Positions 605 through 7,407 are shown, counted from the stretch's first letter. The stretch is DNA of 7,407 nt from Gemmatimonadota bacterium (GCA_020348925.1 CP070758.1:200574-207980), one strand, 5' to 3'. The notes: generated by a model from the sequence alone, not told the origin. Made by a program: numbers and translations.

Positions 605-862
605 ATGACAGCAGAGAACATACATCCCGCTGAAGTCATAAGTTATTCCGGCTACAGGGGTGAAGAGCGTCCTGCATCCTTTGTGTGGAAAGGGACACGT
701 CTGCAAGTTGAAGAGGTGGCAGAGCGGTGGCTGGAGAGGGGTGCAGTCGATGGTGGGAGTGAGAAGAGATACTTTCGCGTCAAAGCGGACGATGCACAAG
801 GCTATATTCTCTTTTACGATACTGACCAGGATCAATGGTTTGTGAGCGAACGGCAATCGTGA
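605..862 (+). CDS. Small conserved-looking protein of unknown function (85 aa)
   Basis: The ATG at 605 has a ribosome site AAAGGTG four bases upstream and a good promoter just before it, so a real gene is likely. The 85-residue product is acidic, has no signal peptide or membrane segment, and should be cytoplasmic. The N-terminal part reads EVISYSGYRGEERPASF, followed by a segment with VEEVAERWLE and a C-terminal beta-like part with YFRVKADD and GYILFYD ending near QWFV. This overall pattern (a beta hairpin, an RW-containing helix, then a YFxV strand and an aromatic end) recalls small uncharacterised bacterial proteins of the DUF6504 kind. That resemblance is from memory and is weak. The gene lies just upstream of the arsR promoter but has its own promoter, so it is probably not part of the arsenic operon. 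No function is proposed. Confidence 0.72.
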   Translation: MTAENIHPAEVISYSGYRGEERPASFVWKGTRLQVEEVAERWLERGAVDGGSEKRYFRVKADDAQGYILFYDTDQDQWFVSERQS

Positions 863-922: not shown

Positions 923-951
923 TTGACATGAACAGTGGCGGGTGTTATATT
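923..951 (+). promoter_or_regulatory. Promoter of the arsenic/thioredoxin operon
   Basis: A perfect -35 TTGACA (923-928), a 17-base spacer, and the -10 TATATT (946-951), five of six to consensus. The predicted start point, near 958, directly abuts the palindromic operator at 960-979. Repressor binding there would block RNA polymerase, the usual ArsR arrangement. This is the strongest promoter-like sequence in the window. Confidence 0.75.
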
Positions 952-959
952 TCAAAATT

Positions 960-979
960 ATATGAACATATATTCATAT
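960..979 (+). promoter_or_regulatory. ArsR/SmtB-type operator palindrome
   Basis: ATATGAA (960-966) is mirrored by TTCATAT (973-979) around the six-base centre CATATA. Nine of the ten base pairs of the 20-bp dyad match. This agrees with the known operator pattern of the ArsR/SmtB family (TGAA, six bases, TTCA, as in CzrA- and SmtB-type sites). It sits between the -10 box and the arsR ribosome site AAGGAG at 989-994, so it would be a self-regulated operator for the ArsR encoded immediately downstream. Confidence 0.8.
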
Positions 980-1000: not shown

Positions 1001-1372
1001 ATGAGAGATACGTTGCAGGTGTTTAAAGCCTTGTCCGACGAAACGAGACTCAGAATCCTGCACTTGCTTCAGAAACAGGAACTGTGCGTGTGTGAATTGG
1101 TGGAGATCCTGGAAATGGAACAGTCGAGGGTCTCTCATCAGCTCCAGATTCTGAAAAACGCACGTCTCGTGAACGACCGCAGAGAGCGGAAATGGATTGT
1201 CTATTCGTTAAACATTCGAGATGACGATTCTTGGAATCGAGATGTTTTTCGTCTTTTAAAGACGTTTCTTGATAAGGATGAGATCGTCGAGGAGGATGAA
1301 CGTCGTCTGAAACTCTGTTTGAAGAGTGATGTTCGGGAACGATGTCACACATTGGAGAGTGTCAGGAAGTGA
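1001..1372 (+). CDS. arsR: ArsR-family arsenite-responsive transcriptional repressor (123 aa)
   Basis: This is a winged helix-turn-helix repressor that represses the operon and releases DNA on binding As(III) or Sb(III). The N-terminal helix [16 protein letters not shown] is typical of the family. It is followed by ELCVCEL, the alpha-3 metal-binding box, with Cys29 and Cys31 as expected arsenite thiolate ligands. The recognition region [17 protein letters not shown] comes next, and the wing includes RKWIVYSL. Two further cysteines near the C-terminus (106 and 115) could supply a third ligand, but that is uncertain. The ATG at 1001 was chosen because AAGGAG lies six bases upstream. An in-frame upstream start at 935 would translate through the -10 box and operator, giving a non-family N-terminus. 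The stop codon overlaps the GTG start of acr3, suggesting translational coupling. Length is normal for the family. Confidence 0.93.
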
Positions 1373-2562
1373 ATTCGGAACCTGTTCGTAGGTTGAGCAT
1401 ATTTGAACACTATCTCACGCTCTGGGTTGCGTTGTGTATTGTTGCAGGTATCGGCCTTGGAAAAATCGCCCCACAGGTAGCCGCGGAGTTGGACGGCCTG
1501 GCCATTTTCGTGGGTGGTGCACCTGTTGTATCCATCCCCATCGCCGCTTGCCTTTTCTTCATGATGTATCCCATCATGGTCAAGATCGATTTTGCAGAGG
1601 TCATTCAGGCCGGAAAGAGCGGAAAGCCGGTGGGTCTCACGCTGTTTGTCAATTGGGCCCTCAAACCCTTTACGATGTATGCCATTGCTCTTTTTTTCCT
1701 GGGTGTTGTGTTCCGCGGACTCATCGGGACGGAGGCTGTGGACCTGGTCAAGATGCCCTTCGGTCTTGATCTGCCGGTGGGATCGAGCCACGGTGCCGGG
1801 ACGGTGGTGCTTGTCGACGGTGTGAAAATGCTCCAGGTACCGCTGTGGCGGAGCTATCTGGCCGGATGCATCCTGTTGGGCGTTGCACCGTGCACTGCCA
1901 TGGTCCTGGTTTGGGGTTACCTAGCCAAGGGAAACGACGGACATACCCTCGTCATGGTGGCCATAAACTCATTGACCATGCTCCTTCTGTATGGAGTGTT
2001 GGGTGGATTTCTTCTCGGTGTGGGAAGGCTGCCCGTACCGTGGCAGGCGCTCCTTCTGTCCATAGGAATCTATGTGGCGCTCCCGCTGGTGGCCGGTTTT
2101 TTCACGCGGAAGTGGATTATTGCGATGAAGGGGGAAAACTGGTTCAGAGACAAGTTTCTTCATATTCTGACCCCAGTCACCATAGCGGCGCTCCTGGTTA
2201 CCCTTGTCCTTCTCTTTTCGTTCAAAGGGGATGTGATCCTGTCAAATCCGCTGACCATCCTGTGGGTCGCTATTCCACTGTTCATCCAGACCAATCTCAT
2301 TTTCTGGGTGGCCTACGGGTTGGCCAGACTTCTCAACTTGACATACAGAGATGCCGCGCCTTCGGCCATAATCGGGGCATCCAACCACTTTGAGGTGGCC
2401 ATTGCCACTGCTACGATGCTGTTCGGCCTTTCCTCCGGAGCCGCCCTGGCAACCGTGGTGGGGGTCCTCATTGAGGTGCCGGTGATGCTCATGCTGGTTT
2501 CAATCTGTAAGCGGACAAGCCACTGGTTTTCTGAGTTTTCACCGCAACCTCCACCGGTATAA
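1369..2562 (+). CDS. acr3: ACR3-family arsenite efflux transporter (397 aa)
   Basis: This is an inner-membrane carrier of the BART superfamily that expels As(III), usually in exchange for protons. The hydrophobic profile fits about ten membrane segments. The family signature [12 protein letters not shown] places the essential cysteine at 175 in the fourth segment. [13 protein letters not shown] carries the conserved glutamate (342) of the ninth segment, followed by [19 protein letters not shown] near the end. The GTG at 1369 is preferred. It forms a four-base GTGA overlap with the arsR stop, has GGAGAG (1354-1359) nine bases upstream, and leaves the usual short N-terminus before [10 protein letters not shown]. 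An in-frame ATG at 1342 (406 aa) is possible but has a weaker ribosome site. Most ACR3 proteins are around 350 residues. The extra length here is largely in about 40 residues between the third and fourth segments (residues 118-157) and in a polar tail. Substrate assignment follows from the family and from arsR next door. Confidence 0.94.
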
Positions 2563-2621
2563 GGAGAAACCGATCTGAAGATTCGAAAAACCAGGGTTCT
2601 GGATAAGGATTGATAGTATCC

Positions 2622-3791
2622 ATGAGGGAAAGAACAAAACTGGCATTGTTTCTCATCGTCTTCGCTGTTGCCTACTTTTTGCCGATTCAGAGTGTCAGAG
2701 TACAATCGGCCATTGTCGAGGCTTTCCACTTACTTCGGGAGTACGCCCGAGAGCACGTTCTCTTCTGTCTGGTACCCGCCTTCTTTATTGCCGGGGCCAT
2801 CTCTGTATTCGTCAGTCAAACGTCGGTGACGAAATATTTCGGCGCTGGCGCTAAGAAAGTTCTCTCGTACAGTATCGCCTCGGTTTCCGGAACGATCCTG
2901 GCCGTCTGTTCCTGTACAGTGCTGCCATTGTTCGCAGGTATTTATAAAAGGGGGGCAGGCCTCGGACCGGCCACGGCTTTCCTGTACTCAGGGCCGGCCA
3001 TAAATATACTGGCCATCATTCTCACGGCAAGGGTATTGGGTTGGGAGCTGGGTATTGCCCGGGCAGTTGGAGCCATTGTTTTCGCCGTTGTCATCGGGTT
3101 GCTCATGGCGGCCATCTACAGAAAGGAGGAACAGCTGGGAACAGCTCAGACAGTTTCTCTCGATTCAGAGGGAGAAAAACGACCGCTGTGGAAGAACGGT
3201 CTCTATTTCCTGACCCTGATTCTTATCCTCATCTTCGCGGCCTGGGGTAAGCCGAGAGAGTCCGTTGGCTTCTGGAACGCAATCTACAACGTTCACTGGA
3301 TCCTAACTGGTGTTACCCTGTTATTTCTTTTTCTGGAACTTGTTTTCTGGTTCAGGAAGGATGAATTGGGTGAGTGGGTGGAGGGAACCTGGTTCTTCAC
3401 CAAGCAGATCCTTCCCCTTCTTTTTGCGGGTGTTCTGGTCGCCGGGTTCCTGATGGGTCGTCCAAATACTGATAGCGGATTGATTCCTGCCAGGTATATT
3501 GCTGACTTGGTCGGCGGGAATTCCTTTAAAGCAAACGTTCTCGCTTCAGTATCCGGTGCGTTGATGTATTTTGCCACTCTAACCGAAGTACCTATACTTC
3601 AGGGACTTTTGGGTTCCGGGATGGGGAAGGGTCCTGCCTTAGCTCTTCTGCTTGCCGGACCAGCCCTGAGTCTGCCCTATATGCTTGTCATACGAAGTGT
3701 CATTGGAACAAAGAAAACAGTGACCTTTGTTATACTGGTGATTGCAATGGCTACGATTACTGGGATGGTATTCGGAGCAGCCTGGAGGTGA
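2622..3791 (+). CDS. PF03773/COG0701 permease, ArsP-like (389 aa)
   Basis: This is a polytopic inner-membrane permease with roughly eight to ten predicted segments. Residues 86-130 hold the family core: SVSGTILAVCSCTVLPLF with Cys96-Ser-Cys98, then a GAGLGPATAFLYSGPAINIL block. A weaker copy of the same layout occurs in the second half (SGALMYFATLTEVPILQG, then GKGPALALLLAGPALSLP), indicating an internal duplication. The second copy has TLTE in place of the cysteines. Members of COG0701 include ArsP, which exports trivalent organoarsenicals, and other proposed metal exporters. Sitting between acr3 and a thioredoxin gene, an arsenic-related efflux role is likely, but the substrate cannot be read from sequence. 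The start is ATG 2622, with AAGGA (2605-2609) twelve bases upstream; an in-frame TTG at 2610 directly touches that site and is unlikely. The 59-base gap after acr3 shows no terminator. Confidence 0.88.
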   Translation: MRERTKLALFLIVFAVAYFLPIQSVRVQSAIVEAFHLLREYAREHVLFCLVPAFFIAGAISVFVSQTSVTKYFGAGAKKVLSYSIASVSGTILAVCSCTVLPLFAGIYKRGAGLGPATAFLYSGPAINILAIILTARVLGWELGIARAVGAIVFAVVIGLLMAAIYRKEEQLGTAQTVSLDSEGEKRPLWKNGLYFLTLILILIFAAWGKPRESVGFWNAIYNVHWILTGVTLLFLFLELVFWFRKDELGEWVEGTWFFTKQILPLLFAGVLVAGFLMGRPNTDSGLIPARYIADLVGGNSFKANVLASVSGALMYFATLTEVPILQGLLGSGMGKGPALALLLAGPALSLPYMLVIRSVIGTKKTVTFVILVIAMATITGMVFGAAWR

Positions 3792-3798
3792 TACTGAT

Positions 3799-4290
3799 AT
3801 GGAAGGTGTGACCATGATACGGATCGGTGGAGTTGAAATCGGGATTCTGGATCTGGACATATCCTTTGAAGAGATCAAACAACTCAATATTCATAATGAG
3901 GATGAACTGAAACGGGCTATTTTCCAGGAAATCAAGAAGAGAAATTATGTCCCGTCTTCCAAGGAGGAAGAATATACTGACGGACTCTATAAGGCATACA
4001 GAAAATTCATGGGAGAGAAGGTTGAGGAAGAGTATGAAGGATTGGAGATCAAGATTCTGGGGCCGGGGTGCGCCCGGTGCGACAAGCTTGAGCAGGATGT
4101 GCGCACCATTTTAACGGAACTCAATATTGCCGCTGAGGTACTGCATGTCCGCGATCCGATGGCCATTGCCGACTACGGTATCATCGGCACACCCGCACTT
4201 GTGGTCAACGGGATCATCAAATCGGCCGGAAAAGTACCGAATCGAGACGATATTGTGAAATGGATTACTGAAATCCAAAACAAATCATAA
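3799..4290 (+). CDS. Thioredoxin-fold redox-active disulfide protein with an N-terminal helical module (163 aa)
   Basis: The C-terminal 80 residues are a small thioredoxin of the redox-active disulfide protein 2 / Thioredoxin_3 type. It begins LEIKILGPGCARC with active-site Cys91 and Cys94, has the cis-proline motif GTPALVVNG at about 130-138, and ends in a basic helix DDIVKWI. The first 80 residues are not thioredoxin. A short beta-like start (MIRIGGVEIGILDLD) is followed by charged helices with SFEEIKQL, NEDELKRAIFQEIKKRNY and a tyrosine- and glutamate-rich stretch. There is no signal peptide, so it should be cytoplasmic. ATG 3799 has GGAGGTG (3784-3790) eight bases upstream, overlapping the permease stop codon. 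ATG 3814, with GGAAGGTG five bases upstream, is a credible alternative. The neighbours suggest it hands electrons to CcdA or services the permease; both are inference. Confidence 0.87.
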   Translation: MEGVTMIRIGGVEIGILDLDISFEEIKQLNIHNEDELKRAIFQEIKKRNYVPSSKEEEYTDGLYKAYRKFMGEKVEEEYEGLEIKILGPGCARCDKLEQDVRTILTELNIAAEVLHVRDPMAIADYGIIGTPALVVNGIIKSAGKVPNRDDIVKWITEIQNKS

Positions 4291-4320
4291 GACTTTGATC
4301 AGCAAGGAATAGATGGGACC

Positions 4321-5013
4321 ATGGAAAACATGTTGAACAACGCCAACGAGCTCATTCATACCAATCCCTGGCTTGCCTTCGTCGCCGTCTTTGTGGGCGG
4401 ACTCCTGACCGCCTCCAATCCCTGTGTTCTGGCCATGATTCCTCTCACCATAGGTTTTGTGGGAGGGACGAAGGAGATCGCGGGATTCAGGAAGGCGTTC
4501 TCCTTTTCCTTCGTTTTTGTGCTCGGGCTGGCCATAACCTTTACAATCCTGGGAATCATAGCGGCCCTTGCCGGGAGGCTTTTAGGAGATGTCGGAAGCT
4601 ACTGGAAATATATCGTCGCCGGTGTGTGTTTCGTTATGGGAATCCACCTCATGGAACTCTTCCGCTTTCAGATCCCCGGCGTGGGCGCTGTGCGTCCGAA
4701 ACGCGGGGGCATTATCGGTGCGTTCTTTCTTGGTCTTCTGTTTGGTGTTGTCTCCACTCCGTGCGCGGCACCCATTCTGGTCGTTCTTTTGGCCTTTATC
4801 GCGGCCAAGGGAAATGTTATGTATGGCGCACTGCTCCTACTCGTATATGCCCTGGGACATTGCGTTCTCATCCTGGTGGCTGGCACCTCCGTCGGTCTGG
4901 CCAAGGGCTTGCTCGAAGCGAGGGGATTGCGTCGAGCCACGAATCTGCTGAGAAAAGGGGCGGGAGGCCTCATTATTCTGGTGGGTCTCTATTTTCTGTT
5001 CATGTCTCCTTGA
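4321..5013 (+). CDS. ccdA: CcdA-type cytochrome c biogenesis / thiol-disulfide electron transfer protein (230 aa)
   Basis: This is a six-segment inner-membrane protein of the CcdA/DsbD-beta family, which carries electrons from cytoplasmic thioredoxin to periplasmic thiol proteins. The two diagnostic cysteines are present: Cys35 in ASNPCVLAMIP in the first segment and Cys148 in STPCAAPILVVLL in the fourth. Paired glycine-rich hydrophobic stretches and a length of 230 residues fit the short CcdA form rather than full DsbD. The start ATG 4321 has AAGGA at 4304-4308, somewhat distant at twelve bases. It lies 30 bases after the thioredoxin gene and directly before two exported thioredoxin lipoproteins. 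The natural reading is therefore that it links the cytoplasmic and extracytoplasmic members of this operon, not cytochrome c maturation, for which no other gene is present. Confidence 0.92.
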   Translation: MENMLNNANELIHTNPWLAFVAVFVGGLLTASNPCVLAMIPLTIGFVGGTKEIAGFRKAFSFSFVFVLGLAITFTILGIIAALAGRLLGDVGSYWKYIVAGVCFVMGIHLMELFRFQIPGVGAVRPKRGGIIGAFFLGLLFGVVSTPCAAPILVVLLAFIAAKGNVMYGALLLLVYALGHCVLILVAGTSVGLAKGLLEARGLRRATNLLRKGAGGLIILVGLYFLFMSP

Positions 5014-5062
5014 ACGTGTAGGTTTATTATTAAATATCGTGGATTCGGAGTAAAATAATACT

Positions 5063-5575
5063 GTGCGAAATATACTACAGTCATCATTTCCTGTTTTCTT
5101 TTTCTTTGTTTTGACGATAGAAATCTTTTCCGCCCTGTTTTCATGTGAAAAGAACAACCCGGAGAAACGGAGTGAAAACGGTCCCGAGGATGCTGTCGTT
5201 GTGGACGTCGTCGGTGAGGATTCGCACGGCGACAGTGTTACTGCAGAGTACCTCCACGAGATAATCCACAGCGGTCGCAAAGTTCTGCTCAACTTCTGCT
5301 ACTGCTGCGACTGCAAGATTACGAAACCCATGCTGCAAAACGCTGTCGAGAAGTATGCCCTTCCTGTGACGGTGATCACTGTGGATGTGATGGAGCATTT
5401 CGATCTGGCCGATGCGTATGGCGTGAAGCAAAGTCCCTTGTACATTCTTTTTAATGAGAGGGGCGAAAAGACGGACACGTTGTATGGCTTTACGGAGAAT
5501 GATTTTATGGATTCGAAAGAGGTCCAGGAATGGTTGAAGAACGGTGTTCTGGAATCCGAAAGGGGGTTGAAGTGA
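5063..5575 (+). CDS. Predicted lipoprotein with thioredoxin fold and CYCCDC cysteine cluster (170 aa)
   Basis: The N-terminus has one basic residue, a long hydrophobic run with four phenylalanines, and a lipobox-like LFSC (Cys28), followed by a polar linker. This predicts an exported, lipid-anchored protein facing the periplasm. Glu20 within the hydrophobic run is unusual and lowers confidence in the signal. The thioredoxin-like domain covers about residues 60-165: LLNFCYCCDCK with Cys79, 81, 82 and 84 at the active-site position, a DVMEHFDLADAYGVKQSP segment with the cis-proline, and the LYILFNERGE strand. Ordinary thioredoxins have WCxxC, so four cysteines in six residues is atypical and could bind a metal or metalloid. 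GTG 5063 has GGAG twelve bases upstream, and no better start is seen. The stop overlaps the next gene's GTG start. Likely a partner of CcdA (inference). Confidence 0.83.
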   Translation: MRNILQSSFPVFFFFVLTIEIFSALFSCEKNNPEKRSENGPEDAVVVDVVGEDSHGDSVTAEYLHEIIHSGRKVLLNFCYCCDCKITKPMLQNAVEKYALPVTVITVDVMEHFDLADAYGVKQSPLYILFNERGEKTDTLYGFTENDFMDSKEVQEWLKNGVLESERGLK

Positions 5576-5811
5576 AGATCGAAGTCTTCGGGCCCGGGTG
5601 TGCCAAATGCACCGCCACGGCGAAGTATGCGCACGAGGCTGTGGCCGAATTGGGTCTTGATGCCGAAGTCGTTAAGGTGGAGAAACTCGACGAGATTATG
5701 AAACGAGGTGTCCTTATGACTCCTGCGGTCTTTATCGACGGGAAAAAATACAGTGAAGGAAAAATGGTAAAAAAAGACCAAATCAAGGAGTGGATACGGT
5801 CCGGAATGTAA
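5572..5811 (+). CDS. Small redox-active disulfide protein, thioredoxin family (79 aa)
   Basis: This compact glutaredoxin-sized thioredoxin-fold protein begins MKIEVFGPGCAKC, with Cys10 and Cys13. It has VLMTPAVFIDG with the cis-proline at 51 and ends in a basic helix KKDQIKEWI. This is the redox-active disulfide protein 2 architecture, complete at 79 residues. It resembles the C-terminal domain of the protein at 3799 (GPGCxxC, TPA, IxxWI), so the two are paralogues. No signal peptide or membrane segment is present, so it is probably cytoplasmic even though the genes on both sides encode predicted exported lipoproteins. The GTG at 5572 was chosen over an in-frame ATG at 5530. It starts exactly at the domain, overlaps the preceding stop as GTGA, and has a G-rich ribosome site (5562-5566) five bases upstream. 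It could donate electrons to CcdA (inference). Confidence 0.88.
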   Translation: MKIEVFGPGCAKCTATAKYAHEAVAELGLDAEVVKVEKLDEIMKRGVLMTPAVFIDGKKYSEGKMVKKDQIKEWIRSGM

Positions 5812-5825
5812 CAAGGGGAAGGAAT

Positions 5826-6242
5826 GTGACTATCAGATTACTCCAATCAATCGTCGTTTCACTCTTATTCATTGTATGCTTCATGGGTTGTGGTGGAAAC
5901 GAGAGCAGGAGCTTCACTGAGGTTCCAGCCCTGGACGAGGCCCAACTGAAACAGACACTGTCATTGAAGAAATATGCGATGATCGAATTCGGTGGTCGCC
6001 ACTGTATTCCCTGCAAAAAGATGCAGCCCATCCTGACCGAATTGTCAAAGAGTTACGGAGCCTCGATTTCTATTGGAAATGTATACGTTCAGGAACAGTT
6101 GAAATTGGGTCGTGAATATAAAGTGCGCTTGATTCCAACACAGATTATTTTTGACAAACAAGGGAAAGAAATTTTTCGCCATATAGGATTCTGGGACAAG
6201 CCCCAGATCCTTGTCAAATGGAAAGAACTGAAGATTCTTTGA
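5826..6242 (+). CDS. Thioredoxin-fold lipoprotein with CIPC active site (138 aa)
   Basis: A short basic N-terminus is followed by a hydrophobic core and a clear lipobox FMGC (Cys22). Glycines and a polar linker come next, so the protein should be lipid-anchored and extracytoplasmic. The thioredoxin domain starts near residue 38. It shows MIEFGGRHCIPCKKMQPIL with Cys60 and Cys63 (Trp of the usual WCxxC replaced by His), VRLIPTQIIFD with the cis-proline at 104, and a C-terminal helix. This pattern is seen in periplasmic thioredoxins that receive electrons from CcdA/DsbD. GTG 5826 has AAGGGG (5813-5818) seven bases upstream and yields the clean signal peptide. An in-frame GTG at 5790 would lie inside the previous gene and add residues ahead of the signal. 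This is the last gene of the operon; the hairpin at 6263-6288 follows. Confidence 0.87.
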   Translation: MTIRLLQSIVVSLLFIVCFMGCGGNESRSFTEVPALDEAQLKQTLSLKKYAMIEFGGRHCIPCKKMQPILTELSKSYGASISIGNVYVQEQLKLGREYKVRLIPTQIIFDKQGKEIFRHIGFWDKPQILVKWKELKIL

Positions 6243-6262: not shown

Positions 6263-6288
6263 GCGAGAATGTGGGGGTAAATTCTCGC
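6263..6288 (+). terminator. Hairpin after the operon, possible weak terminator
   Basis: GCGAGAAT (6263-6270) pairs perfectly with ATTCTCGC (6281-6288) around a ten-base loop, 20 bases after the stop of the last thioredoxin gene. There is no run of Ts afterwards, so it is not a classical intrinsic terminator. It may instead protect the 3' end or cooperate with Rho. Confidence 0.35.
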
Positions 6289-6758: not shown

Positions 6759-7407
6759 ATGCCGGCCAATAATTCTGAAATCGAAAAACGGTTGTGGGAT
6801 GCAGCTGATGAGCTGAGGGCGAATTCGAAGTTGAAATCCTCCGAATACTCCGTACCTGTGCTTGGGCTCATCTTTTTGAAATACGCAGATCATCGATTCG
6901 CCGAAGTGCAGAAGAAGCTTGAGGGAAAGTCTACAGGAAGGCATAAAATAGGCAAGACCGACTATCAGGCTAAGGGGATTATGTATCTGCCGGAGCAGTC
7001 CCGTTTCTCGTCGCTGATCAAATTGCCCGGTAGCGGGAACATCGGCAAAACCATTGATGAGGCCATGAAGGCCATTGAGTTTGAGAACGAGGAATTGCGG
7101 GACGTACTAACCAAGACCTATCACACAATCAGTGACCGAACTCTGTCCACCTTACTGAAGACTTTCAATGCCATTCCCATGGATATGGAAGGCGATGTCT
7201 TCGGGAAGATCTATGAGTATTTCCTGGGCAAGTTTGCCATGGCCGAAGGGCAGAAGGGGGGCGAATTCTTCACGCCCACGGCCATCGTCAAGCTCATCGT
7301 GGACATCATCGAACCGTATCACGGACGCATCTTTGACCCGGCCTGCGGGTCGGGTGGCATGTTCGTCCAGTCGGCCCGGTTCGTCGAGCGGCACAGGAAG
7401 AATCCCA
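6759..7407 (+). CDS. hsdM: Type I restriction-modification DNA methyltransferase subunit HsdM, N-terminal part (3' truncated by the window)
   Basis: 216 residues are visible, and the frame is open at the window end. Residues about 5-135 form the helical HsdM N-terminal domain ([31 protein letters not shown], a conserved basic/tyrosine stretch, and helices up to [12 protein letters not shown]). Then come [16 protein letters not shown] and [18 protein letters not shown], leading into the N6-adenine methylase domain with the S-adenosylmethionine-binding motif [12 protein letters not shown] (residues 192-202). The catalytic NPPF/NPPY motif would lie beyond the window. ATG 6759 has AAGGA (6746-6750) eight bases upstream, and the protein starts as HsdM proteins usually do. 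In the complete system HsdM works with a specificity subunit (HsdS) and usually the HsdR nuclease, presumably encoded downstream. A type I restriction system here marks the boundary to an accessory or defence region. Confidence 0.95.

Follow-up and report, generated by a model that had tools for sequence, protein, structure and literature searches.

A probable CcdA-centered thiol relay in a predicted arsenic-induced operon of a Gemmatimonadota bacterium, and the widespread gene cassette to which it belongs

Introduction

Arsenic resistance (ars) operons encoding CcdA, a thioredoxin, and redox-active disulfide protein 2 were described by Castillo and Saier (2010; PMC2963123, section 3.9). Electron transfer of the DsbD type was discussed there, and a transmembrane role was judged less likely because the arsenate reductase ArsC is cytoplasmic. 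The subject of this report is an arsR-led operon with the same three redox gene families, in a 7,407-nucleotide stretch of DNA (the window; G000:C1:200574-207980) from a 5.04-Mb single-contig Gemmatimonadota genome. Its eight genes are arsR, acr3, a PF03773 permease gene, arsE1, ccdA, lp1, arsE2, and lp2, all in the same orientation (Table 1). It probably combines arsenic-induced efflux with a thiol relay, predicted to run from CcdA to the exported thioredoxin LP2 and to act outside the membrane, and would thus be one member of a widespread arsR-arsP-arsE-thioredoxin-ccdA cassette in which acr3, arsC, and arsM are optional.

The gene combination is not previously unrecognized: it was published in 2010, and ArsE, ArsF, and ArsG are named families. 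In NCBIfam, redox-active disulfide protein 2 is the “MTH895/ArsE family” (TIGR00412), and models exist for ArsF and ArsG as well. ArsEF has been interpreted as a nitroreductase, and ArsG is regarded as an exporter. ArsEFG together (Chen, Zhang and Rosen, 2019, Environ Sci Technol 53:6182) is a roxarsone and nitarsone resistance system, as cited in PMC9144182. For the PF03773 family, ArsP of Campylobacter jejuni carries out efflux of methylarsenite and trivalent roxarsone (PMC6205960). A literature search on the Sao/Tso selenoprotein systems returned unrelated matches only.

The operon and its regulation

Successive intergenic gaps from arsR through lp2 are −31, 59, 7, 30, 49, −4, and 14 nucleotides, a spacing which suggests that the eight genes share one transcript; acr3 possibly starts instead at a GTG at 1369, overlapping the arsR stop codon. 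ArsR has the ArsR/SmtB fold (SmtB, CzrA, and CadC are among its nearest relatives of solved structure) and carries ELCVCEL, within which lies the CVC motif known from As(III) sensors. The operator at its promoter, to which it is predicted to bind, is the sole perfect match to ATATGAAN6TTCATAT in the genome. The initial annotation had proposed an eight-gene operon under arsenic-type control; the gene set is borne out by family matches for every gene and by its tight packing, and the control is supported by the CVC motif and the genome-unique operator.

Table 1. Positions, strands, and supporting matches of features in the window.
Feature	Position	Strand	Evidence
Sigma-70-like promoter, extended −10 (TG before −10)	923..951	+	TTGACA-17-TATATT, consensus scan 11/12
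Predicted ArsR/SmtB-type operator palindrome ATATGAACATATATTCATAT	960..979	.	inverted repeat, 12-2-12-type
arsR, ArsR/SmtB metalloregulator	1001..1372	+	NF033788 99 bits (cut-off 55), PF01022
acr3, arsenite exporter	1342..2562	+	TIGR00832 369.6 bits, cut-off 282.8
PF03773 ArsP-type permease, long (~390 amino acid) form, CSC motif	2622..3791	+	PF03773 258 bits
arsE1, cytoplasmic GPGCxxC thioredoxin-like protein	3799..4290	+	TIGR00412 86.0 bits
ccdA, DsbD-type transmembrane electron carrier	4321..5013	+	PF02683 92.5 bits
lp1, predicted exported/lipid-anchored thioredoxin-fold protein LP1, CYCCDC	5063..5575	+	PF00085 E 4.6e-10
arsE2, cytoplasmic GPGCxxC thioredoxin-like protein, GTG start 5572, 79 amino acids	5572..5811	+	TIGR00412 90.4 bits
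lp2, predicted exported/lipid-anchored thioredoxin LP2, GTG start 5826	5826..6242	+	PF00085 E 1.5e-12
Small DUF6504 gene just 5′ of arsR	605..862		own promoter-like site 554-582

Of the two exporters, Acr3 scores above the equivalog cut-off of its family model, and the permease is assigned as ArsP-type at the family level; family alone does not give the substrate. PF03773 matches number five in the whole genome; one of them (234377-235174) follows the permease of the window at a distance of about 30 kb, on its downstream side.

The redox proteins are predicted to lie on both sides of the membrane. ArsE1 and ArsE2 both exceed the TIGR00412 cut-off of 62 and have a CxxC; ArsE2 has a solved relative in MTH895 (1ilo). 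ArsE1 has an 80-amino-acid N-terminal extension (window 3799-4044: KKRNYVP...EYTDGLYKAYRKFMG) without a convincing Pfam match, and the ArsE proteins of three other loci (L063, L071, L144) carry the same extension. In CcdA (solved relative 5vkv), Cys35 and Cys148 align with the two CcdA catalytic positions, one per half, and the pair assumed in the initial annotation is intact in the alignment of CcdA-like proteins. The lipid anchors of LP1 and LP2 are predicted from N-terminal hydrophobic stretches and a lipobox-like cysteine. A second CcdA gene in the genome adjoins a ResA/TlpA-like gene, which suggests that ordinary envelope reduction is served by a separate carrier. No arsC was found within the operon, and no PF03960 protein in the whole genome. 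An ArsC-like low-molecular-weight-phosphatase gene (L015:1492-1902; G000:C1:1471244-1471654) lies between pstS and pstC, apparently an arsenate reductase in a phosphate-uptake operon.

Conservation of the gene set

Two sets of loci were compared. For the first, ArsE (TIGR00412) was searched in 98 genomes from as many families; 30 of the genomes have it above the cut-off, and 33 neighborhoods were read. For the second, the window CcdA was searched in 386 genomes and 40 loci were read from the top ranks. Because the second was selected by CcdA similarity, co-occurrence can be gauged without bias from the first alone. The window genome is the only member of its phylum in the compared set. Neighbors were labeled with profiles whose seeds were proteins of the window and of plasmids. 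A number of labels, open reading frame starts, and fused-looking reading frames are rough, and many of the contigs end close to the locus.

In the ArsE-selected set, ArsP is near arsE in 25 of the 33 loci, ArsR in 22, CcdA or ArsG in 17, Acr3 and an exported thioredoxin in 10 each, ArsF in 8, and ArsC in 5, with none of the scored partners in another 5. At 11 sites, the window's included, a PF02683 gene and ArsE are no more than 6.5 kb apart, where chance would give 0.22 such sites (computed with rounded genome sizes and hand-transcribed positions); the arrangement of the operon exceeds chance by far. Among the CcdA-selected loci, 32 of 40 are near ArsP, ArsE, or Acr3, and the closest relatives of the window CcdA (in G128, G315, G035, and G188) share 59-62% identity with it. 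A thioredoxin-ccdA pair with ArsE immediately upstream is the arrangement at most ars-linked CcdA loci; at L137, L148, and L154, CcdA is beside acr3 without ArsE. A scan of genome contigs with CcdA alone, where peptide patterns had been poorly placed, found only distant DsbD-type genes, unlinked to ars genes. Plasmids gave no match to the window CcdA and, with a related CcdA as query, one Sulfuricella plasmid.

The ars-linked CcdA unit is therefore conserved, with a recurrent core of permease, ArsE, exported thioredoxin, and CcdA, to which Acr3 is optional. The initial annotation had made its functional unit depend on ccdA and the lipoprotein genes staying beside arsR and acr3 in relatives; co-conservation of ccdA and an exported thioredoxin with arsR, arsP, arsE, and acr3 was found across many families. 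The two lipoproteins differ in this respect. LP2, which belongs to a CxPCKxM...IPTQ...RHxGF subfamily (G-x3-C-x-x-C-K-x-M, P-T-Q, D-x2-G, and R-H-x-G are common to the 12 aligned members), is of the partner type of ars-linked CcdA. LP1, the CYCCDC lipoprotein whose co-occurrence with CcdA and ACR3 had been singled out for checking, is not conserved: no other CYCCDC protein and no close relative was found in 75 fetched loci, where its profile scores 384 bits against itself and at most 28 bits against any other protein. The further proposal of one relay with duplicated carriers on each side overstates the case, and the conserved unit is a different one: ArsE accompanies the permease in many loci that lack CcdA and ArsG, and LP1 is a local addition.

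A second exported thioredoxin-like protein with CxC (CxCx4C in three of four) rather than CxxC was seen at L050:9313-9747, L063:8041-8529, L064:1539-1943, and L116:3327-3794. Such proteins recur in arsE/ccdA or arsE/arsG clusters. They match Pfam families poorly or not at all, and a profile made from them aligns to the LP2 family with a probability of 97.8%. Speculatively, they may be counterparts of LP1 whose several closely placed cysteines would suit As(III) binding.

CcdA lineages in a shared position

A tree of CcdA-like proteins (68 rows, midpoint rooting, several weak forks, bootstrap unsettled) has three groupings, and nearly all of the aligned proteins retain one cysteine per half. 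The first (SPCHL...GPCTF), drawn as paraphyletic under midpoint rooting, is in most loci immediately preceded by a CxPC thioredoxin. The second is ArsG (PCPL...FCPVS; 7 rows, support 100/100), in which the second cysteine sits one position earlier, beside a proline; these proteins (L045, L047, L050, L052, L063, L067, L073) adjoin exported-looking CxxC proteins, the ArsF partner. The window CcdA is in the third (NPCV...[AST]PCAAP; 93/87), with L115, L116, L117, and L064, and more loosely L046, L118, and L119. Neither LP1 nor LP2 matches the ArsF model (NF040494, cut-off 60 bits); proteins of L045, L047, and L063 do.

Because both halves of ArsG retain a cysteine close to the CcdA positions, its “efflux permease” label is open to question; the cysteines prove nothing about transport. 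It can be suggested, tentatively, that one position beside ArsP and ArsE is filled by three CcdA/DsbD lineages (the window's, the SPCHL type, and ArsG), and that every lineage has an exported CxxC partner of its own. On that view ArsF-ArsG, characterized as a nitroreductase plus permease, might be another thiol relay across the membrane, and arsenical reduction outside the inner membrane a general and largely overlooked branch of resistance.

A proposed mechanism and its alternatives

On the favored reading, ArsR would leave the promoter on binding trivalent arsenic, as the CVC motif and operator suggest. Acr3 would export As(III), and the ArsP-type permease another trivalent arsenical, probably an organic one. 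ArsE1 and ArsE2 would be dithiol proteins of the cytoplasm whose primary tie is to the permease; they might hand the arsenical to it or keep it reduced. Electrons would presumably pass outward from a cytoplasmic dithiol, either ArsE or a housekeeping thioredoxin, through Cys35/Cys148 of CcdA to membrane-tethered LP2. LP2, with LP1 as a local extra, could then reduce a target outside the membrane, which might be an arsenical or else a thiol that exported arsenic has blocked or oxidized. What the analysis shows is the gene content, the operator, the cysteines, and the conserved neighborhood; the direction of electron flow, the partners, and the target are inferred.

Several points weigh against parts of this scheme. 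CcdA homologues do not always move electrons outward, and one that also keeps two such cysteines, ArsG, is annotated as an arsenical efflux permease. The first step is uncertain because ArsE widely accompanies the permease without CcdA: in 11 of the 33 ArsE-selected loci ArsP is present with neither CcdA nor ArsG. The association of ArsE with the permease is no looser than that with CcdA, and the ArsE copies need not be the donors to CcdA.

The presence of ArsE by ArsP in 25 of 33 loci, these 11 among them, and the CcdA-acr3 neighbors that lack ArsE recommend the alternative that ArsE1 and ArsE2 are arsenical chaperones of the permease, independent of a CcdA-LP2 pair that merely repairs envelope thiols under arsenic stress. 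This is a narrower version of the proposed relay and overlaps it; as a separate account it is on balance unlikely, given that ArsE is mostly just upstream of thioredoxin-ccdA in ars-linked CcdA loci, and that here arsE1 directly precedes ccdA and arsE2 lies between the two lipoprotein genes.

It is quite improbable that CcdA is itself an arsenical efflux permease, in the way that the name given to its homologue ArsG implies, with ArsE and LP2 as accessory subunits. The window CcdA does match the ArsG model (NF040495; 47.5 bits, E 1.3e-12), ArsG fills the same position beside ArsE in seven loci, and ArsEFG is the system cited for roxarsone and nitarsone resistance (PMC9144182). The match is, however, far under the cut-off of 200; the protein scores better as DsbD_TM, falls outside the ArsG clade, and retains both electron-carrying cysteines, and the operon already has two dedicated exporters.

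Similarly improbable is the proposal of Castillo and Saier that the redox proteins feed electrons to cytoplasmic ArsC, with no transmembrane relay: arsC is in the operon in seven of eight published instances (PMC2963123), and the ArsC-like protein encoded between pstS and pstC scores about 100 bits with TIGR02689/TIGR02691 (below their cut-offs), but the window operon lacks arsC, the conserved thioredoxin could not serve a cytoplasmic enzyme if exported as predicted, and ArsC (by the thioredoxin-type profile only) is near just 5 of the 17 arsE loci having CcdA or ArsG and 11 of the 40 CcdA-selected loci, so that, with 12 of the 17 lacking it nearby, no PF03960 protein in the genome, and the ArsC-like gene in a pst operon, the relay need not serve ArsC.

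Neighboring features

None of the 75 ars loci read contains a relative of the DUF6504 gene upstream of arsR. Positions 1-276 encode the C-terminal part of a protein that looks secreted and carries an NPFNP...YSLP domain of the sorting type, as is typical of FCB-like phyla, and 6759-7406, 3′ of the operon, the start of hsdM (type I restriction-modification). A hairpin at about 6263-6288, past the end of lp2, was considered as a terminator and is not claimed as one: it is not stronger than shuffled sequences (z −1.0) and has no T run.

Comparison with known systems

The survey shows the arsenic-linked CcdA cassette to be common across bacteria, with no requirement for a neighboring arsC, and links a set of uncharacterized genes to ArsEFG. 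Should the relay be real, a step outside the inner membrane belongs to arsenic resistance that is missing from models centered on ArsC, ArsB, and Acr3, and ArsG's annotation as an exporter deserves re-examination.

Like C. jejuni ArsP, the window permease is a PF03773 protein, encoded in an ars operon beside Acr3; it differs in being a family-level match, with a predicted substrate. With the CcdA/DsbD relays (CcdA with ResA or TlpA; DsbD) the window system shares a single-domain DsbD_TM protein, its cysteine pair, and exported thioredoxin partners, but it is under ArsR control and encoded with arsenic exporters and ArsE. The ArsE family is common to the window and to ArsEFG, whose exported-looking CxxC protein ArsF and CcdA-related ArsG occupy the same position beside ArsP and ArsE; the window has instead a CcdA outside the ArsG clade and classical thioredoxins. 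The operons of Castillo and Saier have the same three redox gene families. Most of them include arsC, which is not definitional and which the window operon lacks, whereas the latter has two ArsE, two exported thioredoxins, and both Acr3 and ArsP.

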